Below are positions 1,330 through 30,183 of a stretch of DNA of 30,980 nt, piece by piece. Where the stretch lies: the IMG/VR virus record IMGVR_UViG_3300033149_003045, positions 1-30,980 of that record; one strand, given 5' to 3'. The position numbers were made by a program, and so were the translations under genes. Within the stretch, counting starts at the first letter, position 1. Every line of letters begins with the position of its first letter. This DNA is from a virus. The notes beneath the pieces were generated by a model. It searched no databases and was not told where the DNA came from. It saw only the letters and a list, made by a program, of their open reading frames with translations.

Positions 1330-2779
1330 ATCTCTTAATTGTGGAACGAATAATGATTTATTAAGAAATGTGATTCGTAATTATTATAGAGATTTTTTGT
1401 TTGCTTGTTATTATTATTACATTGAGGACAAACGCGGTAATTTAATTCGGCTTGTTCCTAATCGAATACAAAGAACGTTTTTGAACAATATGACTGGCAG
1501 AGATATAATTCTGAAAGCCAGACAGATGGGAATTACTACTATAATTCAGGCTTTGTTTTTTTGGTTAGCTAATACTCAATATAATATTAGAAATTATACT
1601 GTAAATTATAATCGTGAAATGACAAGGTTAGTGTTAGAGAAAGTTAAAACGTTTCTGAAAAATTTACCACCTGAGCTAATGCTTAAGATGGATGTTGAAA
1701 GTAAAGAAGCGTATTATTTTAGTGCTACGAATTCTAAACTTAATATTGGAACAGCAGGAGCTACAACTGTTGGAGAAACGAAAACCGCAGGGCGTTCAAT
1801 AACTATCTCAAATTTACATTGTACTGAAGTTGCGTTTTTCCCTGACGCTGAAGCGGTTATGCCTGGGTTGCTGAGTTCTGTTCCGTTAGATTATGGAATA
1901 ATTGCTCTTGAATCAACAGCAAACGGTGTAAGTGGATATTTTTATGATGAATACCAGAAAGCGGTTGCTGGTATAGGAATGTTTACAAGACATTTCTTTC
2001 CGTGGTTCATGCATGAAGAATATCAGATTCCGTTGAAAAATGGAGAAGAAGAAGAAATTAAAGAAACGTTAACTATTGAAGAAAAAGAAAAAATAAACAG
2101 GTATAGTTTAACGTTCCCACAAATCAAGTTTCGGAGGTCAAAACAAAGGGAACTTGGACGGTTTTTCTTACAGGAATTCCCCGAAACGGAAGACGAAGCG
2201 TTTTTATCGGCGAGAGGACGAGTGTACCCGAATTTTGATGAACAAAATATAATTGAAAAACAGAATATAACTTTTAAACGAAAGTTGGCAGGGGTTGACT
2301 GGGGAACACGGAATCCGTTTGTAATAGTTGTTGGTGGTGAAGATTATGATGGGCGGATTGTTATCATTGAGGAAGTTTATAAAGTCGGATTAAGTGAACC
2401 TGATTTTATTCGGGAAGCTCAGGCAATTCAAAGAAAACATCCCGAAATAGAAGCATGGTATTGCGACCCATCTGGAGCTGGTCATATTCAATCGTTTCAG
2501 AATGTCGGGATTAATGCGTATCCTGCTGATAATTCTGTAATAGATGGAATCAATGAAGTTGAAAAATCTCTTAGATGTGATTTTACTGGAACTCCTGGAT
2601 TAGTTGTATTTAATACTTGCGTTAATACGATTCGTGAAATGAAAGCTTATCGATTCGGTAAAGATATAGGTGGTGTTCGTAGGGAAGTACCAGAAAAACA
2701 GAATGACCATTGTCCTGATGCGATACGATATCTCGTGAAAGGGGCAAAGATGGCTGATATATTTATTGGAGCGTATTAG
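1292..2779 (+). CDS. terL: Large terminase subunit (packaging ATPase/nuclease)
   Basis: 495 aa, the usual size for a two-domain TerL. ATPase domain: Walker-A-like KARQMGITT (75-83), Walker-B-like HCTEVAFF (176-183) and coupling motif ALESTANG (205-212). RuvC-fold nuclease domain: AGVDWGTRNP (Asp336), YCDPSGAG (Asp392) and NDHCPDAIRY (Asp472/Asp476) supply the metal-binding acids. It acts at the portal to pump DNA into the prohead and cut concatemers. ATG 1292 lies inside the end of the small subunit gene; GTG 1316 is an alternative start. It ends in TAG two bases before the portal ATG. Confidence 0.95.
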   Translation: MGKTRKARVKTAKSLNCGTNNDLLRNVIRNYYRDFLFACYYYYIEDKRGNLIRLVPNRIQRTFLNNMTGRDIILKARQMGITTIIQALFFWLANTQYNIRNYTVNYNREMTRLVLEKVKTFLKNLPPELMLKMDVESKEAYYFSATNSKLNIGTAGATTVGETKTAGRSITISNLHCTEVAFFPDAEAVMPGLLSSVPLDYGIIALESTANGVSGYFYDEYQKAVAGIGMFTRHFFPWFMHEEYQIPLKNGEEEEIKETLTIEEKEKINRYSLTFPQIKFRRSKQRELGRFFLQEFPETEDEAFLSARGRVYPNFDEQNIIEKQNITFKRKLAGVDWGTRNPFVIVVGGEDYDGRIVIIEEVYKVGLSEPDFIREAQAIQRKHPEIEAWYCDPSGAGHIQSFQNVGINAYPADNSVIDGINEVEKSLRCDFTGTPGLVVFNTCVNTIREMKAYRFGKDIGGVRREVPEKQNDHCPDAIRYLVKGAKMADIFIGAY

Positions 2780-2780
2780 T

Positions 2781-5051
2781 ATGGATTCATCGATGTTATA
2801 TGGTGGGTATGGAAACGTTGTAGATACAAAAGACGTTCAGTATGAGAAACGTGACGATACTGCTCGGAAGTTTTTTGTTATAAATATTGGTGATGACAAA
2901 ATAACTCCACCTTACAATTTGGATTGTTATGCTGAAACGTACACTGCTGAGTTGTGGGTATACGCTGCAGTGAATGCAAAAGCAACAGATATTAGTGGGT
3001 GTCAATTACGTGTATACGAAAAACATGCATCGAATTCTAAAACGAATAAAACTGAAATTGTGGAGATAACTGATGATGATGAGTTTGCTGTAATTAGACA
3101 ACCGAACCAACAAGAAATAGACCAGCAGTTTCTAAACATGTCAATATTGAATGGTGAATTGAATGGTGAAATTATCTGGGAAAAAGGTTTCAATAGTAAT
3201 GGTAAAGTTAACAATCTTTGGAATCTTGAACCAAGAAGAGTTGATATAAAGTTTGACAAAAAGGGTAATCATGTAGGATACGTATATAGGACTTCCGATA
3301 AGGAACAAACTTTCAAACCAGAGGAAATATTTTTTCTAAAATATAATGACCCAATGAATCCGGTTCGTGGAATGTCGCCTATTCGTGCGGCTGAAAAATC
3401 TATTATTTCTGATTTGAATTCTCAAATTAACAATATCAAGTTTCAGGAACAAGGGTTTAGGATGTCGGGAATGTTAACGTCTGCTGATGGGACACCGATT
3501 AAAAAAGATGATGAACGAAGAATCACTAATGCGCTTGAACGGAAATTTGGCGGAGTACACGCAAAGAACGTTCATGGGTTGTTAGTTCTTGGTGCAAATA
3601 TGAAGTATACAGAATTTGGTGTTACTCCAAAAGATGCAGAGTTTATTCTATCAAGAAAACTTTCAAGAGAAGAAATTATTGCGATATTTGGAGTTCCGCC
3701 TGTTCGTGTAGGTATTACTGAAACATCGATTAGGGCAAACGCAGAAACGCAGATGAAAATGTATTGGGGTTCTACAATTATGCCTTACCTTAGAAGGTTC
3801 GAGGAAATAATTGATAAGTTTTTGTTGCCTGATATTACTGATAGGAAAAACGTATTTGTGAAATTTGATACTTCTCATATTGTTTATTTACAAGAACCTT
3901 TTAGACAGAGAATAGAGCGAGTTAATACGGCGTTTCCGAAAGCGGCGATGACTATAGACGAAGTAAGAAATTTACTTGAAATTGGTGATGCACTTGGTGA
4001 GGAGAATGGTGGGAATGAGAGGTATATTAGTTCTAATTTGTTTCCTGTTTCTGCATATAAGGAAAAAGAAGAAAAAAAAGAAGAGGAAAAGAAACAATAT
4101 ATTAAAGCCGTCGTTGATGGGTTTAAGATTTTAAATAATAGAATTGCAAAAATCGAAGAAAGGATTATTGAAAAGACTAATATAAAAACTAAAGAACAAA
4201 AACAAATTATTGATAGAAGTTCAAATGGTTTTGATAGAGATTTAGATGGTTTGTTGACGTCCGAACAATACAATAAGTTTATAAAGGAAAATCCTGAACG
4301 GACGATATATTGGCATAAGATAAATCGACAAACAAGGTTAACGGAATTAAAGTTACGTCGAAAATCCGAACGAATATTATCACAAGTAAAAAAACAGGTA
4401 CTTGATAGATTTGATAAATTAAAAAAGAAACGAGTAGATAATCCTGCGGATTTGAGTCCTGCGGAGATTGAAGCATTAAAGATTAACGAAAAGTTATATC
4501 TTGCAAAGTTTCTTAATGATTTCAAACCTGAGTTTCGTGAAGGGGTAAAACAATCGTTGCAAGAATTAGGTGATGAGTTAGGTGAGGAAACGGCACAGTG
4601 CGCTAATAAAATATATAATGAAATATATCAAGAACGAAGGAAAGTATTAAAATCTGTTCCTGTACATATCAACGATGAAATAGTGGCTACCGTAAAAAAA
4701 GGGTTAATGGAAAAAGAAACAATAAATCAGATTAGGGATAGACTTGTAAGTAAACTTGATTCAAGTAGACGTAATAGAGCGGTTACTATTGCAAGAACTG
4801 AAGCACAATCGGTGCATGTAGGTTCAAAGAATAAAGCCGCAAAAGAAATTGAAGCTACTCATAAGATATGGGTTACTTCAAGAGACCCGAAAGTTCGGGA
4901 ATCTCATGCTGAGTTAGATGGAGAAAGAATAAAAATTGATGAGCAGTTCAGCAATGGATTAGATTATCCATTAGACCCATCGGGTGAAGCGTCAGAAATA
5001 ATTAACTGTAGATGTTTTGCCGCATATGAAAAACAAAAACAGGAGGAATAA
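2781..5051 (+). CDS. Portal protein fused to a C-terminal MuF/SPP1-gp7-like domain
   Basis: 756 aa, clearly longer than an ordinary portal (about 400-500 aa). The first ~390 residues have portal features: YAAVNAKATDISG early on, RGMSPIRAAEK in the middle, and IFGVPPVRVG followed by an amphipathic stem. Residues ~405-500 are charged and helical. The last ~110 residues match the MuF-like head protein family, with D-x-x-VR-x-SH, LDGERI, YPLDPSG and a terminal NCRC signature. ATG 2781 was chosen because GGAG lies 9 nt upstream at 2768-2771; an in-frame TTG at 2766 lies inside the terminase gene. The protein forms the dodecameric DNA channel at one capsid vertex, and the fused domain probably sits inside the head. 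Confidence 0.9.
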   Translation: MDSSMLYGGYGNVVDTKDVQYEKRDDTARKFFVINIGDDKITPPYNLDCYAETYTAELWVYAAVNAKATDISGCQLRVYEKHASNSKTNKTEIVEITDDDEFAVIRQPNQQEIDQQFLNMSILNGELNGEIIWEKGFNSNGKVNNLWNLEPRRVDIKFDKKGNHVGYVYRTSDKEQTFKPEEIFFLKYNDPMNPVRGMSPIRAAEKSIISDLNSQINNIKFQEQGFRMSGMLTSADGTPIKKDDERRITNALERKFGGVHAKNVHGLLVLGANMKYTEFGVTPKDAEFILSRKLSREEIIAIFGVPPVRVGITETSIRANAETQMKMYWGSTIMPYLRRFEEIIDKFLLPDITDRKNVFVKFDTSHIVYLQEPFRQRIERVNTAFPKAAMTIDEVRNLLEIGDALGEENGGNERYISSNLFPVSAYKEKEEKKEEEKKQYIKAVVDGFKILNNRIAKIEERIIEKTNIKTKEQKQIIDRSSNGFDRDLDGLLTSEQYNKFIKENPERTIYWHKINRQTRLTELKLRRKSERILSQVKKQVLDRFDKLKKKRVDNPADLSPAEIEALKINEKLYLAKFLNDFKPEFREGVKQSLQELGDELGEETAQCANKIYNEIYQERRKVLKSVPVHINDEIVATVKKGLMEKETINQIRDRLVSKLDSSRRNRAVTIARTEAQSVHVGSKNKAAKEIEATHKIWVTSRDPKVRESHAELDGERIKIDEQFSNGLDYPLDPSGEASEIINCRCFAAYEKQKQEE

Positions 5052-6657: not shown

Positions 6658-6717
6658 CTGAAGGAGGTCTTCAGACGTGCCATAAACTTTAAACTTGGAA
6701 ACGTTTTGGAAACGTTT
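6658..6717 (+). promoter_or_regulatory. SD-loop hairpin followed by twin AAACGTTT palindromes ahead of the capsid gene
   Basis: CTGAAG (6658-6663) and CTTCAG (6669-6674) form a perfect 6-bp stem around a GAGGT loop; together they hide an AAGGAGGT ribosome-site sequence that has no gene of its own. Further on, the palindrome AAACGTTT occurs at 6699-6706 and 6710-6717, 11 bp apart (one helical turn), with a partial third copy (AAACTT) at 6691. It may be an operator, an RNA-processing element or a late regulatory site for the capsid gene. Confidence 0.4.
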
Positions 6718-6763
6718 CTGAATTGTGAATATTATTAAAAACTAAAACAAAAGAGGTTGAACG

Positions 6764-8308
6764 ATGGATTTCAAAAACAAAAAAGAGGCTCGCGATTATT
6801 TCGTAGAGCAAGGTAATACTACTGAAAATGCAGAAAAGCTTGCGTCTGCTTTGTTTCCTGATGAATCTTCAGGTGAAGTGAAAGATAAGATTGAAGTTAA
6901 AACGCCAGATACGTTTGAGAAAAAGATGGCTGCTCTTGCGAATGAAGTTACGGAACGAAACGAATTCGTAAAAAAGGTACGTGGTATTGTAGATGAGCAT
7001 ATTGCTGAAGTTGAGAAAAAGCTTGGTGAACGTAAATCTGAAATTCAAGTTGAGAATCCTGGAAGTTATCTTAATGATGTTGGGCTTGAAAGAGACATAG
7101 TTGATAAATCTATGGATTTGTTTCTTACTGCTGTATTTGGCGCGAAAATATCACCGTATACTGGTGATGGTAAAATGAATGTTGCTCCGATGAGACGTGC
7201 TCTTAGTAGATTATCTGATAAGTATTATCAGAAAGTTTTCGGAGTACGGACAGTTTCACCTATTAGGAGAGCGTTAGAAAACGATACGAATGTTGGATCT
7301 GAGTTAATTCTTGATGTTGGATTAACAAAAATATTTGATGAAGTGAAACTTGAGAATGCACTCTTATCGAATTTACCTATTATTTTGTATCGTGGTAAAG
7401 GGACGCTGAAAATGCCTTTAATTACAAGTTCACCGACATTATATCTTATTGGTGAGAATATTGGTGATTTAGGGTCGCCGTCTGATAGTGCAACGAAAAT
7501 TAAAGATTCTAATATTGGTACTGAAAACAGAACGTTCACATGGAAGAAACTTGGGTTACGGTCATTCTGGGATTCGGATTTCGATGAGGATGCTATGATT
7601 GCGGGGTTACCGTTAATCAAAACGAAATTCAAGAAAGTTATTGCTGATGCGCTAGAACGAATCGTAATGTTTGGTGATACTACTACCGGAACAACGAATA
7701 TGAATTATAACGGTAGTTCGCCAACAACGACAGCAGGGCAAGCCAACTATTGGTTAGCGTGGAATGGTATTTGTACGTTATGTTTAGGGAGTGGCAGCAC
7801 TACTTATTATAACGATGTTTCAAGTACAATAAGCGTTAATTCTAATTGTGGGGTAGCTCTTGATTCGTTAGGTAATTATGCTAAGAATCCTATGAATGAT
7901 TTAATTTGGGTATTCAACCATAGTGCTTTCTGGGGAGCTGTAACCGATAGTAGTTATGTGACGGTTGACAAGATGGGGAATTTGGCAACTCAGATAACAG
8001 GTATGCTTGGGGCGATATTTAATGTTCCCGTAATTATATCATCTGGACTTCCGTTGCATCATTCTGATGGCAAAGTAAGTTCTACGGCAGCTAATAATAC
8101 GAAAACAGGATTTGCACTTGTATACAAAGATGGTGTGCAGATTGCTATAAAACGAGAAATGACGTTCGACTGGGAGAAGAAAATCGATATTGACGCATAT
8201 CATGCTGTTTCGACGATGCGAGCGGACTGTCAGTATCCGTATGCTGATTCAACGAATCCTTATGGGTTTCATTACAGCTATGATATAACCAGACCAAAAG
8301 ACGCATAA
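6764..8308 (+). CDS. Major capsid protein, HK97 fold
   Basis: 514 aa. It follows the protease gene, as in HK97-like head modules. The first ~110 residues are charged and helical (a scaffold-like delta domain expected to be removed by the protease). The rest has the coat-protein pattern: GSELILDVGLTKIFDEVK, KMPLITSSPTLYLIGE, IWVFNHSAFWG, VPVIISSGLP, and a C-terminal YKDGVQIAIKREMTFDWE. It assembles into the icosahedral shell. ATG 6764 follows AGAGG about 8 nt upstream. The length suggests an inserted surface domain around residues 300-370 (Gly/Ser/Thr/Asn-rich). Confidence 0.92.
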   Translation: MDFKNKKEARDYFVEQGNTTENAEKLASALFPDESSGEVKDKIEVKTPDTFEKKMAALANEVTERNEFVKKVRGIVDEHIAEVEKKLGERKSEIQVENPGSYLNDVGLERDIVDKSMDLFLTAVFGAKISPYTGDGKMNVAPMRRALSRLSDKYYQKVFGVRTVSPIRRALENDTNVGSELILDVGLTKIFDEVKLENALLSNLPIILYRGKGTLKMPLITSSPTLYLIGENIGDLGSPSDSATKIKDSNIGTENRTFTWKKLGLRSFWDSDFDEDAMIAGLPLIKTKFKKVIADALERIVMFGDTTTGTTNMNYNGSSPTTTAGQANYWLAWNGICTLCLGSGSTTYYNDVSSTISVNSNCGVALDSLGNYAKNPMNDLIWVFNHSAFWGAVTDSSYVTVDKMGNLATQITGMLGAIFNVPVIISSGLPLHHSDGKVSSTAANNTKTGFALVYKDGVQIAIKREMTFDWEKKIDIDAYHAVSTMRADCQYPYADSTNPYGFHYSYDITRPKDA

Positions 8309-24800: not shown

Positions 24801-25178
24801 ATGAAACTATCAGATGAACAATTTGAGTTTCTGTTAGATGTTATCGTTTTGATGGATTGGTGTATTCTGGAATACAATATAAAAATCACTGGTGGGGAAC
24901 TTTATCGAACACAAAATCAACAAAACATATATTACGAGAAAGGGTTATCCAAGAAAAAACATTCATATCATCAAGATAGGCTTGCAATAGATTTGAATTT
25001 TTTCAAAGATGGAAAATTATTAAGAAAAAAATCAGAAATAAAATTTATTGGTGATTATTGGGAATCGCTAAATGAAAAAAACCGATGGGGTGGTAATTAT
25101 AAAAATTTTTATGATGGTTGTCATTTTGAACGAGCGGTATGGAAAAAATCATCTAAAAACGTGGAGATAATAGGATGA
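24801..25178 (+). CDS. Endolysin, M15-family peptidase
   Basis: 125 aa. GELYRTQNQQNIYY, SKKKHSYHQDRLAIDLNFF and GCHFERAVW give the M15 zinc-peptidase pattern (H-x6-D plus a C-terminal HFE), as in phage L-Ala-D-Glu or D-Ala peptidases that cut peptidoglycan cross-links. WGGNYKNFYDGCHFE includes the typical WGG turn. No signal peptide is present, consistent with release by the upstream holin. The length is compact but covers the whole domain. It overlaps the next gene (ATGA). Confidence 0.85.
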   Translation: MKLSDEQFEFLLDVIVLMDWCILEYNIKITGGELYRTQNQQNIYYEKGLSKKKHSYHQDRLAIDLNFFKDGKLLRKKSEIKFIGDYWESLNEKNRWGGNYKNFYDGCHFERAVWKKSSKNVEIIG

Positions 25179-25405
25179 ACGAACTATTACAAGCATTTAT
25201 AGTTGTGTTTGCGATTGGTTTTTTTGACCATCTTATTAAGGCAAGCACGAAACAACGATACGGTTATGACTGGAACAAATTTCCTGATTGGATGAAATCG
25301 CCAGAAACTTTTAAGCAGATATTCAGCAGACCTTATGAGCTTTTATTTCTTGGGTTATCGAGTCTTTTATTTATATCGAATTGGATTTATTATGATTATC
25401 CTTAG
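25175..25405 (+). CDS. Two-segment membrane protein of the lysis cassette
   Basis: 76 aa. Hydrophobic stretches at residues 4-20 (LLQAFIVVFAIGFF) and 53-72 (ELLFLGLSSLLFISNWIYY) with a charged loop between. ATGA overlap with the endolysin and a GGAG site indicate coupled expression. It could be an antiholin, a second holin or an infection-exclusion protein; no family is recognised. Confidence 0.55.
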   Translation: MNELLQAFIVVFAIGFFDHLIKASTKQRYGYDWNKFPDWMKSPETFKQIFSRPYELLFLGLSSLLFISNWIYYDYP

Positions 25406-25428
25406 CGACTGTTTACTTTATTATTCTT

Positions 25429-25728
25429 ATGATTTCTGGATGGGAATGTTTGTTATACTGGATTTCTGATTGGATAATACGGCTCGATATAGCTTATTGG
25501 CGACAGGTACTTCCAGTGTATAAACCGAAAATCAAACCATTTGAAATTCCACCTGAATTGAATTGGCTTAATAAACCATTCTTATTACCGTTTTATATCC
25601 GAAAAATCCGAAACACTAAAAACAATTATGAAAAAAATTATAAACCAAAAGTTGAAGATATAGATTTGCTTTGGAGTTGTTTACTTGGATTAATAATTTG
25701 TATAACGATAAAGTATTTATGGAGTTAA
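25429..25728 (+). CDS. Membrane protein, unknown function
   Basis: 99 aa, tryptophan-rich N-terminus (WECLLYWISDWIIRLDIAYW), a Pro/Lys-rich middle and a C-terminal membrane segment (LLWSCLLGLIICITIKYLW). There is no clear ribosome site at ATG 25429; expression may depend on coupling to the gene ending at 25405. Part of the membrane-protein cluster after the endolysin. Confidence 0.45.
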   Translation: MISGWECLLYWISDWIIRLDIAYWRQVLPVYKPKIKPFEIPPELNWLNKPFLLPFYIRKIRNTKNNYEKNYKPKVEDIDLLWSCLLGLIICITIKYLWS

Positions 25729-26004: not shown

Positions 26005-26742
26005 ATGAAAATAAAAAACAATATTTATAAATATGCTGCTATTGTGTTTTTTGTACTTTTTTTGTTTCAGTTGTGGGAAGGAAAAATAAAAGGAGAAATA
26101 TCTACTCTTGGAAAACAACTTGGAATATTTACTGATAAAATAAGTCCACATATAGAATTTCCTTATAATCCTAATTTTTATGATGATTCGTTTTTCGGGA
26201 AAGTTCAGAATACAATATCTTGGAGTACAGAATCAAAACCGATTATAATTCAAACTATTGATACGGTACGTGTAAAAGAATTACCTGCTGTTCCGATGGT
26301 AAGCATGAATATAGATAATTCTAAAGCATACTTATTTTTAAAAATCAATAATAAAATTTATACATATACATTCAATATTCCAGAAGAAGGGGAAACTTAT
26401 ATCATTCCGACACCACTAGAAAAAGATAAACTAAACCTGAAGAAACCAATACAAATTAAAACACAACGGTTCGGATTCATGAAAGCAGTTGGTGTTGGGA
26501 TGAACAATAAAATTAAACCTGAAATTAATTTTGATTTTCTGTTCTGGAATAAATTACCATTAATTAATACACTAAGACTTGGGTTGAATTACGAATACAC
26601 GAATCATGATTTAGGTAATATTGGGTTTGTTGGAAGTGTAACTCCGTATTATAGATTTAACCGAATTCAGATTTATGCTGGCTGGTACTTCCCCGACAAT
26701 ATGTTCAGGTTAGGTTTGAAAATAAGATTGTTTTCATTATAA
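26005..26742 (+). CDS. Membrane-anchored protein with barrel-like C-terminus (spanin-like candidate)
   Basis: 245 aa. N-terminal anchor at residues ~9-24 (YAAIVFFVLFLFQLW), a ~130-residue periplasm-length middle with a PIIIQTIDTVRVKELP element, then a C-terminal region of alternating strands (TLRLGLNYEYTNHD, VTPYYRFNRIQIYAGWYF) ending in RLGLKIRLFSL, a terminal pattern of outer-membrane beta proteins. Such a protein could link inner and outer membranes, doing the job of a spanin in a Gram-negative host. This is inferred from topology; no family is recognised. It is the last gene of the late block. Confidence 0.5.
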   Translation: MKIKNNIYKYAAIVFFVLFLFQLWEGKIKGEISTLGKQLGIFTDKISPHIEFPYNPNFYDDSFFGKVQNTISWSTESKPIIIQTIDTVRVKELPAVPMVSMNIDNSKAYLFLKINNKIYTYTFNIPEEGETYIIPTPLEKDKLNLKKPIQIKTQRFGFMKAVGVGMNNKIKPEINFDFLFWNKLPLINTLRLGLNYEYTNHDLGNIGFVGSVTPYYRFNRIQIYAGWYFPDNMFRLGLKIRLFSL

Positions 26743-26778: not shown

Positions 26779-26816
26779 TTTTTTTCATTTTTCAAATTCT
26801 TATGTTATATTATAAT
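26779..26816 (+). promoter_or_regulatory. Promoter of the csf operon
   Basis: A perfect TATAAT lies at 26811-26816, with a weak -35 (TTTTTC at 26788-26793) at 17-nt spacing. Transcription would begin near 26823, just before the AGGAGG ribosome site at 26829-26834. The 36 bases at 26779-26814 match 29 of 36 positions with the region upstream of the gene at 30841. Confidence 0.55.
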
Positions 26817-26843
26817 ATGAGAATTAAAAGGAGGAGTTATGTT

Positions 26844-27491
26844 TTGATACCAACGAAATTTATAGCTAAACATTTAAAGATAAAACGAGTGCCTCATATA
26901 AACAAAACTGTATGTAAGATATGTGGTAGAGAAATAGTAAGAGGACTACATTACAAAAAAACGTTATCCTCAACGTTTAATGATTGGCAATATTGCAAAT
27001 ATGATTCATCTTATATCTGTAAATATTGTCAAGCATGCATGGACGGTAAATCATTTAACGGCAAAGCAATTCGTTCATATAATTTATTAATAACTGAAGA
27101 TAATATTAGAGTACTCAATAAATCAGATGTATATAATATTATATTAAACATAGAGTTACCATCGATATTGATGGTAACGTATTCTCACAAGAAACACTGC
27201 TTTTTTAATGCAATAATTAATAAATACAACAAAAATGTATGGGTTGCGACTGACAAATATAGATTATTGATTGATGTTAATAAGTTTAAGTTTGTATATG
27301 ATAGTCTCGACTATTTATATCAAAAAGGATTTTCTAAGTCAGAATTGGAGTCTGGTTATTATAAGAAATATAAATTAATAGATGATATACCTAATTTTTA
27401 TTCAATTGTTGATAATATTTGTCAATATAAATATACAAAACTGTTTGAGTTTGTTTTACATTTACTTTCAAAAAAGGAGAAAAAACAATGA
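26844..27491 (+). CDS. csf1: Csf1-like zinc-finger subunit of a type IV CRISPR-Cas effector
   Basis: 215 aa from TTG 26844, placed 9 nt after AGGAGG; the product then opens IPTKFIAKHL, like Csf1 proteins. The zinc finger Cys24/Cys27 (CKIC) and Cys59/Cys62 (CKYC) encloses G-LHYKKTLSSTFNDW, the spacing typical of Csf1. The C-terminal half has PSILMVTYSHKKH and YLYQKGFSKSELESGYY, also Csf1-like. Csf1 is the Cas8-like large subunit. In-frame ATG 26817 lies upstream of the predicted transcript start and is less likely. An out-of-frame ATG-TTT-TGA (26839-26847) overlaps the TTG. The stop overlaps csf2 (ATGA). Confidence 0.75.
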   Translation: MIPTKFIAKHLKIKRVPHINKTVCKICGREIVRGLHYKKTLSSTFNDWQYCKYDSSYICKYCQACMDGKSFNGKAIRSYNLLITEDNIRVLNKSDVYNIILNIELPSILMVTYSHKKHCFFNAIINKYNKNVWVATDKYRLLIDVNKFKFVYDSLDYLYQKGFSKSELESGYYKKYKLIDDIPNFYSIVDNICQYKYTKLFEFVLHLLSKKEKKQ

Positions 27492-28672
27492 TAAAAATTG
27501 ATTACCAATTCAAAACAAAGACGCCGCTTCATACTGGCAGCGATAAAAATCTTGGAATTCTTAAAAGTTTAAGACGTCAAAAAATAATTTTACATCATGA
27601 AAATGAATATAGTTCATATTTCAATGATGATGAAAGAGTTGAAGCTATTGTACAAATATTAATAGCTGTCCATAAATCAATTAATTTTGATAATATGAAA
27701 CAAAAACGAATTATGGGTTTGTGGGATGAATGGTATTCTAAACTATTAAGAGCGGCAACTGTCAGGAATAAACGTCAATTCTTAAATGAATTATGTGTTT
27801 CATGGGATATTAGAAGTATTAACAATATAAACATTGTAGATGTTTTTGAAAAAATAAGCGATGAAGAATTATTGGAAACAATTAGAAATGATGCTCATTA
27901 TATTATTTTAAAATTACGAAAACGTGCAAAAGAAAAAAATGTACAAAATATAGATATGTTTAAAGAAGATATTAAGAAAGATAAGTATATTAAGACTTAT
28001 GAAATGATACCGATAGTTTCAGGTAATAGTATCAGGGGGATTATACGAAGACTTGGAATGCATGATTTCATAGATAAAATTGGAATAACTAAAATCTCAA
28101 AAGACAATTATCATATTCTTTTTACTGGTGGTGTTCTTGATGAATCAACAATGTATGAAGATATAGAAAAGAGAGAAAAATTAATTGCAATGTGTCCTAT
28201 AATTGGTGTTCTTGGTGCAGCTATAGGTAATATGACTATTGAGGGAATGGTTTCTGTGGGGATGGCATATCCTGTATGCAGAGAATTAGGAACAGGAAAA
28301 TTATCGTTTTGGGAATACCTTGATACGATATTCCAAACACGAAGTGATAGTTCAAAGACAGAAAAAGAAATTGAGATAGTAGGTGAACATGAGGAACCTG
28401 ACCAAATGAAATATGAATATGAAGTATTTTCACCTGGTACAATATTTAATCATGGGTTCAGAATGTTTGATTTTAATCCATTATTAGTTTCAACGTTTTG
28501 GCATTTATTGTTTTTGTTTAAAGAAAATCCTTTTATAGGTGGAATGAGGGCTGTCGGAAATGCGGAAATCGATTTATCGGAACTTAATATTCCAAGAAAG
28601 TCAAACGAATTATATATCAATTATATTGAAGAGAACAAAAACAATATAAAAGAGTTTTTTGATGTTAAATAA
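27488..28672 (+). CDS. csf2: Csf2 (Cas7-like RAMP backbone) of a type IV CRISPR-Cas effector
   Basis: 394 aa. RAMP features in order: TPLHTGSDKNLG (12-23), IPIVSGNSIRGIIRRLG (174-190), HILFTGGVLD (209-218), CPIIGVLGAAIGN (236-248), a MKYEYEVFSPGTIF strand-turn (308-321) and GGMRAVGNAEID (351-362). Cas7 subunits polymerise along guide RNA. Residues ~44-165 are a charged all-helical segment between the first strand and the SGN motif. SD AAGGAG lies upstream; ATG overlaps the csf1 stop, and cysH-like ATG overlaps its end by 11 nt. Other RAMP families were considered, but the neighbours fix it as Csf2. Confidence 0.85.
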   Translation: MIKIDYQFKTKTPLHTGSDKNLGILKSLRRQKIILHHENEYSSYFNDDERVEAIVQILIAVHKSINFDNMKQKRIMGLWDEWYSKLLRAATVRNKRQFLNELCVSWDIRSINNINIVDVFEKISDEELLETIRNDAHYIILKLRKRAKEKNVQNIDMFKEDIKKDKYIKTYEMIPIVSGNSIRGIIRRLGMHDFIDKIGITKISKDNYHILFTGGVLDESTMYEDIEKREKLIAMCPIIGVLGAAIGNMTIEGMVSVGMAYPVCRELGTGKLSFWEYLDTIFQTRSDSSKTEKEIEIVGEHEEPDQMKYEYEVFSPGTIFNHGFRMFDFNPLLVSTFWHLLFLFKENPFIGGMRAVGNAEIDLSELNIPRKSNELYINYIEENKNNIKEFFDVK

Positions 28673-29432
28673 AGAAGGATGGATAAAATATTTTTTGGAA
28701 TATTCCAGTTTAGATATTCACAAAAAAAGAATCCAGAAATCAAAAGAAATTATAGATGTTTTTTTGTCACAGGTTAATAATCCATATATTTCTTGGAGTG
28801 CTGGTAAGGATTCAACTGCTATGTTATTTTTGATTCTTGAAAATTGTCCTGATATAAAAATCATGACAGAAAAAGATGACCTTGATTATCCGGGTGAAAT
28901 TGAGTATGTATTTAGATTGAAAGAAAAGTATAATTTGAATTTAGATATAATAAATCCATCTGTTTCCTTGTGGGATGAAATTCAAAATTATAAATTTGAT
29001 GAAGATATGCATTCCAGAAATACAGATTTTTCTAATAAGTTTTTCTATTCTTTAATTTCAAACTATAAAAATAAAAACAATAATGATGGTGTATTTCTTG
29101 GATTAAGAGCAGAAGAAAGCAAGGGGAGGGAATGGAATAGAAAATATAGAGGAACAATTTATAAAAACAACAGAGAAAAAATATTGATTTGCACTCCGAT
29201 TGCAGAATGGAAGGGTGATGACGTTTTTGCATATTTATTATCAAACAACATAGAAATATTCAATATATATTGGAAACTAAAATTTATAAATGACCCTCGT
29301 CTTATTAGGAAATCGTGGACAATTCCCGGAAATTTTTCTTGTCGTGGTGATATTCAATGGTTAAAATATCACTATAGGGAAGTATATAACAAATTAGTTA
29401 CAATAGACCCGTTTATAAAAAAATATGTATAA
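28662..29432 (+). CDS. CysH-like PP-loop (adenylyl-sulfate/PAPS-reductase-fold) protein of the type IV-B set
   Basis: 256 aa. PP-loop SWSAGKDSTAML (44-55), the second nucleotide motif GLRAEESKGR (147-156) and CTPIAEWKGDDVFAYL (177-192) are CysH hallmarks. The C-terminal ECGLH redox motif of assimilatory reductases is missing; only a lone Cys227 in NFSCRGD remains. It is therefore unlikely to reduce PAPS with thioredoxin, and could instead activate or modify another substrate using ATP. CysH-like genes are a known companion of type IV-B csf operons. ATG 28662 was chosen over TTG 28659; it overlaps csf2 by 11 nt. Confidence 0.85.
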   Translation: MLNKEGWIKYFLEYSSLDIHKKRIQKSKEIIDVFLSQVNNPYISWSAGKDSTAMLFLILENCPDIKIMTEKDDLDYPGEIEYVFRLKEKYNLNLDIINPSVSLWDEIQNYKFDEDMHSRNTDFSNKFFYSLISNYKNKNNNDGVFLGLRAEESKGREWNRKYRGTIYKNNREKILICTPIAEWKGDDVFAYLLSNNIEIFNIYWKLKFINDPRLIRKSWTIPGNFSCRGDIQWLKYHYREVYNKLVTIDPFIKKYV

Positions 29433-29447
29433 TTGGAGAAAAAAATA

Positions 29448-30113
29448 ATGATATATAAAATAACATTCAATATGACTTCTCCTATATCGTTTATAGATAA
29501 ACCTATTTTTGATTCAATGGTAATGTACTGTGAATATCAAAAACAACGATTAGTTACTGATTTTCATACTCCAACTGGAAAAGAAATAATAAATTTTGAT
29601 ATTCCGATTGATAAACATGAAGATGGATATTATTTAGCTTCATATATGTTTTTGGATAATAATTGTGAAGGACAAGACACATGGAAAAAACGATGGGAAA
29701 ACAAATATGATTATATAGTTAATTTTGGAAACACGAAAAAACGAATACATACAGGTTCGGGGAAATTCAAATCTTATAATATTCCTATAAACATTGTATC
29801 GACAAAAAATGTTTGGTTTTATTTTTCTGGTGATGCGACGAAAGTAAAAAAAATGGTTGACAAATATTTAATTGGTATTGGTAAAAAAATAAAAATAGGG
29901 TTTGGGTGGTTTAGTGGTTTTACGATTGAAAAAGAATATGATGATAGTTTTGTCTATTACCGTCCATTGCCTGGTTTTTATAGTGAGACCGATTTAAAAA
30001 GAATATTTAAACATATTCCTCATTATGAAAAAACTTTTGGTGCATGGAAAGTTCCCTATTGGTTACCTCAAAATCAAGAAAAAATAATTAAGGCGTTATA
30101 CGACTGCAATTGA
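29448..30113 (+). CDS. csf3: Csf3 (Cas5-like RAMP) of a type IV CRISPR-Cas effector
   Basis: 221 aa from ATG 29448 (GGAG 9 nt upstream; an in-frame TTG at 29433 overlaps that site). Csf3 features: KITFNMTSPISF first strand, FDSMVMYCEY (21-30), KKRIHTGSGKFKSYNIPI (97-114), the glycine-rich loop GIGKKIKIGFG (143-153), YYRPLPG (170-176) and a C-terminal VPYWLP. Cas5-type subunits cap the 5' end of the guide RNA next to the large subunit. It is last in the operon, 15 nt after the cysH-like gene, and followed by a terminator-like stem. Confidence 0.85.
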   Translation: MIYKITFNMTSPISFIDKPIFDSMVMYCEYQKQRLVTDFHTPTGKEIINFDIPIDKHEDGYYLASYMFLDNNCEGQDTWKKRWENKYDYIVNFGNTKKRIHTGSGKFKSYNIPINIVSTKNVWFYFSGDATKVKKMVDKYLIGIGKKIKIGFGWFSGFTIEKEYDDSFVYYRPLPGFYSETDLKRIFKHIPHYEKTFGAWKVPYWLPQNQEKIIKALYDCN

Positions 30114-30149
30114 TGGGTTTCCTGAAAAACTTAGATATAAATATAACAG

Positions 30150-30183
30150 AAAAAATTTAACTCAAAAAAAATTAAATTTTTTT
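30150..30183 (+). terminator. AT-only stem and T-run after the csf operon
   Basis: AAAAAATTTAA (30150-30160) and TTAAATTTTTT (30172-30182) are perfect complements (11 bp) with an 11-nt A-rich loop, and the right arm ends in a 7-T run. The stem lacks G/C, so its strength is uncertain, but the position 37 nt after csf3 fits a transcript end. Confidence 0.45.

Follow-up and report, generated by a model that had tools for sequence, protein, structure and literature searches.

What a CRISPR (clustered regularly interspaced short palindromic repeats) effector operon does in the genome of a tailed phage is the question raised by IMG/VR record IMGVR_UViG_3300033149_003045, which was analysed over 30,980 nucleotides (nt), here called the window. 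Four tandem genes on the + strand (csf1, csf2, a cysH-like gene and csf3) occupy positions 26844–30113. It is nearly certain, in our judgement, that together they encode a type IV-B-like CRISPR effector borne by the phage, from a distinct clade whose Csf2 contains the small subunit Cas11 between two of its own strands. The first gene (26844–27491) encodes a Cas8-like Csf1 of 215 amino acids (aa) with a CxxC..CxxC pattern (PADLOC typeIV_Cas8, E-value 6.6e-30); csf2 (27488–28672) encodes a Cas7-like backbone protein of 394 aa (typeIV_Cas7, 8.4e-45); the third gene (28662–29432) a CysH-like PP-loop enzyme of 256 aa, referred to as CasCysH (Pfam PAPS_reduct, 5.3e-19, above the cut-off); and csf3 (29448–30113) a Cas5-like protein of 221 aa (typeIV_Cas5, 5.8e-33). 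These matches are far beyond chance and bear out the gene order that an initial annotation had proposed for this place. That annotation would have yielded if profile searches had put the two RAMP proteins outside Csf2/Csf3 and the zinc-finger protein outside Csf1; the searches were run, and PADLOC assigns all three to their Csf families. The NCBIfam equivalog models for the Csf proteins gave only 32.4, 19.9 and 44.1 bits against curated cut-offs of 140, 130 and 140 (TIGR03114 on Csf1, 6.8e-8; TIGR03116 on Csf3, 1.8e-11; each below cut-off), and the Pfam RAMPs match was also below its cut-off; the operon proteins are therefore divergent members of their families. Conservation differs between the subunits: in three related loci (L003, L008 and L009; L and G numbers designate loci and genomes) Csf2 is 55–61% identical to that of the window versus 23–37% for Csf1, and the corresponding values, with L009 left aside, are 38–46% for Csf3 and 26–33% for CysH, Csf2 being far better conserved.

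The placement of Cas11 was read from the Csf2 sequence and from its predicted structure. Residues 52–150 match the type IV Cas11 profiles of PADLOC (1.6e-9). An AlphaFold model of the window Csf2, computed on 18 sequences, had a predicted local distance difference test score (pLDDT) of 84.5 and a predicted template modelling score (pTM) of 0.78; assigned with DSSP, it runs from a strand (residues 30–43) through helices within residues 47–148 (27626–27931, +) to a second strand (165–175) and the remainder of Csf2. Alignments locate the insertion at the same point: in canonical Csf2 an LR(R) motif is joined by a short turn to a P..(S/N)GN(S/A).RG motif, and where the turn should be, the window protein and its relatives have about 120 or more residues. 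Of the 72,556 plasmid records in PLSDB, 47 match the Csf2 of L003, a protein that shares 61% identity with the window Csf2; in the 40 matches listed, the alignment starts at residue 166 or later of the L003 protein, after the insert. The model as a whole resembles type IV-A Csf2 (best Z 19.1, root-mean-square deviation (rmsd) 4.6, 251 aligned residues; VIA), type IV-B Csf2 (7jhy_a; Z 17.4, rmsd 3.3, 217 aligned; VIA) and Csm3 (Z 14.2, rmsd 3.8, 188 aligned). PADLOC found Cas11 inside Csf2 in all six fused proteins scanned (window, L003, L008, L009, L010 and L042), and a local Cas11 profile, built in part from the proteins themselves, matches inside all 12 fused Csf2. On these profile matches and the predicted fold, we read the small subunit as an internal domain of the window Csf2, lying between two Csf2 strands, a feature that the initial annotation had missed.

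The carrier of the operon is a tailed phage, as judged from matches to terminase, portal, head protease, head-tail adaptor and tape measure proteins. The entire window recurs, at 99.98% identity and with one gap over 30,981 columns, in a second record, which is 49,113 bases long and past the operon runs into phage replication genes (primase, phrog_47, 1.4e-37); this continuity argues against a chimeric assembly. The G+C content of the operon is 27.6%, lower than in any of the 114 overlapping upstream windows of the same length (31.4–37.2%), which is consistent with acquisition. The best 8 of 784 terminase relatives show at most 35.3% identity to the terminase of the window.

Relatives of the operon were collected with two pattern scans of IMG/VR, which yielded 31 and 55 csf2 loci, respectively; between them these lie on 56 different contigs, one being the near-copy of the window. 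IMG/VR holds 2.9 million contigs, of which such scans are far from an exhaustive survey, and 'viral' is here the label of that database, not the outcome of a check per contig. With L009 (a Paludibacter metagenome-assembled genome, MAG), L042 (genome G394) and L044 and L045 (genome G374) the collection comprised 60 loci. Cas11 is placed inside Csf2 in 12 of these, is encoded by a gene of its own in 44, and is fused to the C-terminus of Csf1 in one (L075); none was found in L072, and two loci are cut by the contig edge (L095 and L096). When a tree was built from 43 Csf2 sequences with the insert removed, the 12 fused proteins formed one side of a branch with support of 99/96, a topology that fits a single origin of the Cas11 insertion. 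Left out of the tree were seven near-copies, L073 and L096 (short csf2), the references L129, L130 and L132, and ten loci that lack the searched motif and in every case have a separate cas11; L042 and L131 form long branches, so that among the 12 it is L042 whose position is least certain. The Csf1 fusion is a second type: L075 (6850–7866) and L072, which has a long Csf1 (6701–7879) and no cas11 found, are sisters in the Csf2 tree. The fused arrangement is met in phages of different build (Mu-like in L003, HK97-type in L049, and contigs of 90 and 153 kb in L008 and L010; open reading frames, ORFs, read by eye). Among cellular genomes, the fused Csf2 profile matches 3 of 395 genomes of the phylum of the Paludibacter MAG, the MAG itself included. 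Genome G394 contains a csf1-cas6-csf2/cas11-cysH-csf3 stretch of 4,789 bp twice, at 99.9% identity (L042, 6487–11275, and L043); the two copies share their opening sequence, in L042 the tail of a 1036-aa ORF, and the stretch is perhaps a mobile cassette. Type IV csf2 operons had been expected to be unusual in phages. They are infrequent and scattered, with one csf2 match in the 50,697 records of INPHARED, in Skermania phage SPI1 (KR011061), but they are not unique to the window, given the 56 IMG/VR contigs and the viral type IV systems already in print (PMC10848311, the accessible text of which cites Al-Shayeb 2022 for type IV in lytic phages). In the accessible text of PMC9723712, csf2, csf3 and csf4 are reported on a viral contig.

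By its gene content the operon falls under the definition of type IV-B, with Cas11 present as a domain and not as a gene: csf1, csf2 and csf3 are recognised by PADLOC (the NCBIfam matches staying under their curated cut-offs), a CysH-like gene stands in the operon (PAPS_reduct, 5.3e-19), and no array lies beside it in the window or in the 49 kb near-copy, records that may be incomplete. The four operon proteins, scanned with PADLOC and Pfam, gave no match to Cas6, to a nuclease or to adaptation proteins. Type IV-A is disfavoured by the lack of a DinG or Cas6 match among these four proteins and of an array, and type IV-C by the presence of Csf1 and the lack of a Cas10-like protein among the four; the assignment of a type IV-B-like effector to a phage therefore stands. 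The Csf2 tree contains no IV-A or IV-C rows, the nearest solved sequence being Cas7c and the best fold score that of a IV-A Csf2.

Several known systems share part of this architecture. According to the accessible text of PMC7937560, the type IV-B system of Mycobacterium sp. JS623 (7jhy) likewise consists of Csf1, Csf2, Csf3 and Cas11, with neither an array nor a crRNA (CRISPR RNA) maturase in the operon, and its Csf2 fold is the one compared above (Z 17.4, rmsd 3.3, 217 aligned); it resides, however, on a megaplasmid and has its own cas11 gene, whereas the window has a phage carrier and Cas11 within Csf2. The type IV-B systems of Fuxiviridae, viruses of Bathyarchaeia, are also virus-borne and have a CysH-like gene adjoining csf3, but the virus is archaeal, there is a mini-array of two repeats, and Cas11 is a separate protein; the accessible part of that paper (PMC10848311) mentions no Csf2-Cas11 fusion. 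Skermania phage SPI1 (L132, 2840–6473) has the same gene set as the window, as csf1-cas11-csf2-csf3-cysH in a row of annotated hypothetical proteins, but with a separate cas11. Cas7 and Cas11 do occur in one polypeptide in the Cas7-11 effectors of types III-E and III-I, which contain several Cas7 domains plus a Cas11 domain and, for III-I, are predicted to cleave RNA (as far as the accessible text of PMC12669027 goes); the window has a single Csf2 with an inserted Cas11 and would still need to polymerise. The best sequence matches of the Csf2 and Cas11 profiles (5.2e-26 and 0.028) are chains of PDB entry 11fs, by name 'Cas7c' and 'Cas11c', which are separate; a Cas10-like gene, typical of type IV-C, is absent from the four genes of the window.

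The CysH-like protein is the component from which a function might be read. The PP-loop positions (47 and 49–52 in L046) are each kept in 40–43 of 43 aligned CasCysH, and the full searched motif in 39. The conserved C-terminal catalytic cysteine that PMC8175902 describes for sulfate-assimilation CysH was not found in this alignment: the sole cysteine column present in at least 30% of the rows (window residue 177 of 256) is occupied in 22 of the 43. For the locus counts that follow, seven near-copies (L057, L060, L064, L074, L100, L101 and L106) were dropped, leaving 53 loci. Five of these have csf2 and csf3 without a small CysH (L050, L054, L066, L067 and L087), a number that does not include L058, whose csf3 runs off the contig, and L075, where the contig ends 0.8 kb after csf3. 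In L054, L066 and L067 the gene is replaced by one for a protein of 154–166 aa resembling S-adenosylmethionine (SAM) methyltransferases; Pfam and PHROGs matches are weak, and the model of the L067 protein (pLDDT 83.2, pTM 0.82) retrieved SAM methyltransferases as top Foldseek matches, including some that act on tRNA or rRNA. L050 has instead a 219-aa protein that weakly matches queuine tRNA-ribosyltransferase (TGT; 0.0067), for which Pfam gave no match, solved structures nothing useful, and IMG/VR only the protein itself. L087 has an IbrA-like PAPS (3'-phosphoadenosine 5'-phosphosulfate) reductase and a ParB-like protein.

Further enzymes stand beside the CysH-like gene within csf operons. N6_N4_Mtase is found above the Pfam cut-off in L119 (5e-8) and below it in L103 and L098, SpoU above it in L085 (1.4e-8) and below it in L104, Glycos_transf_2 above it in L095 (9.4e-6) and below it in L099, and the operon of L098 also holds a PD-(D/E)XK protein (4.4e-10, above cut-off). 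IbrA and ParB lie together inside the operons of L047 (9498–11335; phrog_2302, 8.3e-92, and phrog_2159, 1e-73), L053 (IbrA with DUF3440, 3.2e-9), L065 and L098; both proteins of L047 and the IbrA of L053 were called with Pfam or PHROGs, all other IbrA/ParB calls, L087 included, with a local profile and by eye. A haloarchaeal Halomontanus plasmid (L129, 6738–8672) carries annotated DUF3440 and ParB genes 1.3 kb after csf3. Altogether, 30 foreign genes of at least 100 aa were counted inside csf operons, across 21 of the 53 loci, and Pfam (E 0.01) assigned three to N6_N4_Mtase, two to SpoU, two to glycosyltransferase 2, two to Cons_hypoth95, three to ParB and two to Cas6. The 133 flanking genes, taken as the nearest ORFs of 100–900 aa (which excludes a 1036-aa methyltransferase-like ORF beside L042), are headed by phage families (Mu F 4, portal 2, integrase 2), and among the 25 of 110 flanking families that were listed none of N6_N4_Mtase, SpoU, Glycos_transf_2, Cons_hypoth95, ParB and Cas6 has two or more members. 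A Dam-like flanking gene, identified by eye, follows csf3 in L054. The varying modifying enzymes of some related operons suggest a nuclease-free, RNA-bound complex that is coupled to nucleic-acid modification.

With regard to RNA supply, the array of L049 (10416–11106) has 11 identical repeats of 32 nt and 10 spacers of 33–34 nt, and lies 0.95 kb after cysH on a contig of an HK97-type phage or prophage with a fused csf operon; the contig ends about 60 nt past the array, which may belong to the phage or to the host. We take the repeat to resemble that of type I-C. The array region found no match among the 50,697 INPHARED records, its spacers had no convincing match in the collected csf loci (best 17 nt, E 0.002), and Rfam matched neither the window nor L049. 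Spaced repeats of 72 nt in G005 were rejected as an array, being located (by eye) within protein-coding repeats. A cas6 gene stands inside the csf operon of L048/L010 (2.6e-33), L042 (2.9e-41), L091 (7.9e-15) and L108 (1.4e-13). A local Cas6 profile of five sequences was built from its own matches and is not independent; L059 was called Cas6 by eye, and Pfam Cas6 families match further members of the intra-operon gene set. The 153.5 kb contig of L010/L048 has Cas6 and no array. A gene of a T. nautili plasmid annotated as Cas6 (L128, 4740–5483) matches the local csf3 profile (4.2e-54) and not the Cas6 profile; from these comparisons the product name is probably wrong, and the gene is not counted as Cas6 here.

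The best overall explanation, to which we give a probability of about 0.5, combines the identity of a IV-B-like operon with an RNA filament that has the CysH-like protein as its catalytic arm. Csf2 subunits would polymerise on RNA, each carrying its own Cas11, and one chain would supply both of the intertwined type IV-B filaments, at a Csf2:Cas11 ratio of 1:1; Csf3 (Cas5-like) and Csf1 (Cas8-like) would cap the filament ends. Binding is not expected to lead to cutting, because the operon has no nuclease gene. No guide or scaffold RNA is encoded next to the operon, and we infer that this RNA is probably supplied by the cell, as host crRNAs or RNAs of another kind, and that the CysH-like PP-loop protein acts on nucleic acid, most likely as an ATP-using modification at or near the bound site. 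Use of guide RNA is favoured by the Cas6 genes inside four csf operons and by the L049 array, and a catalytic, modifying arm by the conserved PP-loop positions and by the enzymes that replace the small CysH in five loci. A role as catalytic arm fits the proposal for CasCysH in the accessible text of a review (PMC8175902), namely ATP alpha-hydrolase chemistry with loss of the catalytic cysteine. As to purpose, RNA-directed modification or marking of a target, phage or host nucleic acid appears the most likely, ahead of a pure sponge for guide RNA, although we would put it at somewhat less than an even chance. Competition between phages or with plasmids, and control of host transcripts, as proposed in the initial annotation, are candidate roles. 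More tentative is the generalisation to type IV-B as an RNA-directed modification machine, in which a nuclease-free filament would place an interchangeable enzyme (mostly CysH-like; elsewhere a methyltransferase, SPOUT, glycosyltransferase, TGT-like protein or IbrA-ParB). With this machine phages would mark DNA or RNA or disarm it, and the clade of the window would have streamlined the filament through Cas11 in Csf2.

A number of observations weigh against a filament that directs modification. No extra intra-operon gene of at least 100 aa is present in 32 of the 53 loci (apart from cas6, which two of the 32 hold), 8 of the 30 extra genes cannot be read as modification, ParB, Cas6 or PD-(D/E)XK proteins, and the TGT-like and several methyltransferase calls are weak and below the Pfam cut-off. 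Since the flanking control covers 25 of 110 families, modification families with a single member may be hidden in it, and the enrichment is not quantified. The solved IV-B complex was, by the accessible account, assembled on heterogeneous RNA and not on guides (PMC7937560). An exact 16-mer scan found no CRISPR array in the window or its near-copy, which may be incomplete records, nor in the whole viral contigs of L003, L008 and L010 (15, 90 and 153 kb), and an array was seen at only 1 of the 60 loci, L049. With respect to the Cas11 insert, a profile of 21 sequences searched against the PDB missed the Cas11 chain of 7jhy, the best match being 'Cas11c' (E 0.028); the homology of the insert thus rests on the PADLOC profiles, the alignment and the predicted helices.

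The heterogeneous RNA in the solved complex makes a guide-RNA sponge a serious rival, and we consider it possible, if on the doubtful side. The phage complex would then be an anti-CRISPR that absorbs host crRNAs or other small RNAs and leaves host CRISPR-Cas disarmed; the fused Cas11 would do no more than stabilise the filament. The operon without a nuclease gene, the phage records of the window without an array and the Cas6 without an array in the contig of L010/L048 would all suit such a sponge, as would the assembly of the solved IV-B complex on non-specific RNA of regular length, and the hypothesis is already in print (accessible texts of PMC7937560 and PMC8175902, respectively). What it leaves unexplained is the near-constant CysH-like gene and the other modifying enzymes of some operons. 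We think it unlikely that the complex silences rival phages or plasmids under RNA guidance and without cutting them, in the manner of type IV-A and with the CysH-like protein as an auxiliary. In Foldseek and VIA the Csf2 model does score best against IV-A Csf2 chains, mostly from DNA-bound complexes, and one relative (L049) has a CRISPR array beside its operon, but none of the operon genes encodes a DinG helicase, and neither the array region of L049 nor its spacers found a convincing counterpart in the phage records and the collected loci, respectively. Very improbable is a role of the CysH-like protein in sulfur metabolism, as an auxiliary metabolic gene present in the operon by chance. The name PAPS reductase is given by both Pfam and PHROGs, and PHROGs classes the family as moron or auxiliary metabolic gene; the gene, however, overlaps the end of csf2 with its start and is followed by csf3, no cysteine column is common to more than 22 of the 43 relatives, and in 5 of the 53 loci other enzyme types take its place.

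Some details of the locus concern gene starts and neighbours. The csf1 start was picked by eye between TTG 26844 and the in-frame ATG 26817; the TTG is preferred because a strong Shine-Dalgarno sequence, AAAGGAGG (26827–26834, +), lies just upstream and because the resulting N-terminus can be aligned with relatives (MIPTKFIAKHL.. with MRTSEMIAKHL.. of L003). Cysteines 33, 36, 68 and 71 of Csf1 (numbering from ATG 26817) are invariant in the four aligned sequences; the CxxC..CxxC pattern as such is found in 35 of 51 Csf1 overall and in 8 of 12 of the fused clade. The genes had been described as overlapping, which holds for csf1/csf2 (4 nt) and csf2/cysH (11 nt) but not for cysH and csf3, which are separated by 15 nt if csf3 starts at ATG 29448. 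An own promoter had been claimed on account of a TATAAT box, which is present before csf1 (26811–26816, +); it is only a possible promoter, with promoter-like sites between 24400 and 30980 numbering 38 against 46.8 (standard deviation 6.9) in shuffled sequence. The candidate terminator did not hold up, no terminator-like site being found on the + strand between 30113 and 30380. The operon was also said to follow directly on the lysis cassette: an endolysin-like gene does lie upstream (24801–25178), but the gene immediately before csf1 (26005–26742), which has no family match in Pfam or PHROGs, intervenes. Between these, a 184-aa ORF of the near-copy (L002, 7687–8241) corresponds to two ORFs of 76 and 99 aa in the window (25175–25728), a split due to either a sequencing error or a real frameshift. 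Elsewhere, a single 761-aa protein (window 2766–5051) bears both portal and head-morphogenesis (Mu F-like) matches, and close to the end of the 49 kb near-copy (G001, 284–403) a 60-nt unit occurs twice in direct tandem.

The CysH-like protein has been pointed to as a key to type IV-B function (accessible texts of PMC8175902 and PMC7937560), and to this the viral operons add a comparative clue: the filament genes are accompanied by different enzymes, and where these can be recognised, many act on nucleic acids. Neither the Cas11 insertion into Csf2 nor this variation of the enzyme was found in the searchable open literature, some key papers lying outside its reach, and the variation makes a specific test of modification possible. 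For structural studies the Csf2-Cas11 chain provides a complex with fewer parts. In Skermania phage SPI1, which is recorded with a named host strain, it may be possible to delete a IV-B operon from a phage. Some phage 'cysH' genes that are read as metabolic in virome papers (e.g. PMC9723712, in its accessible text) may be CRISPR components.

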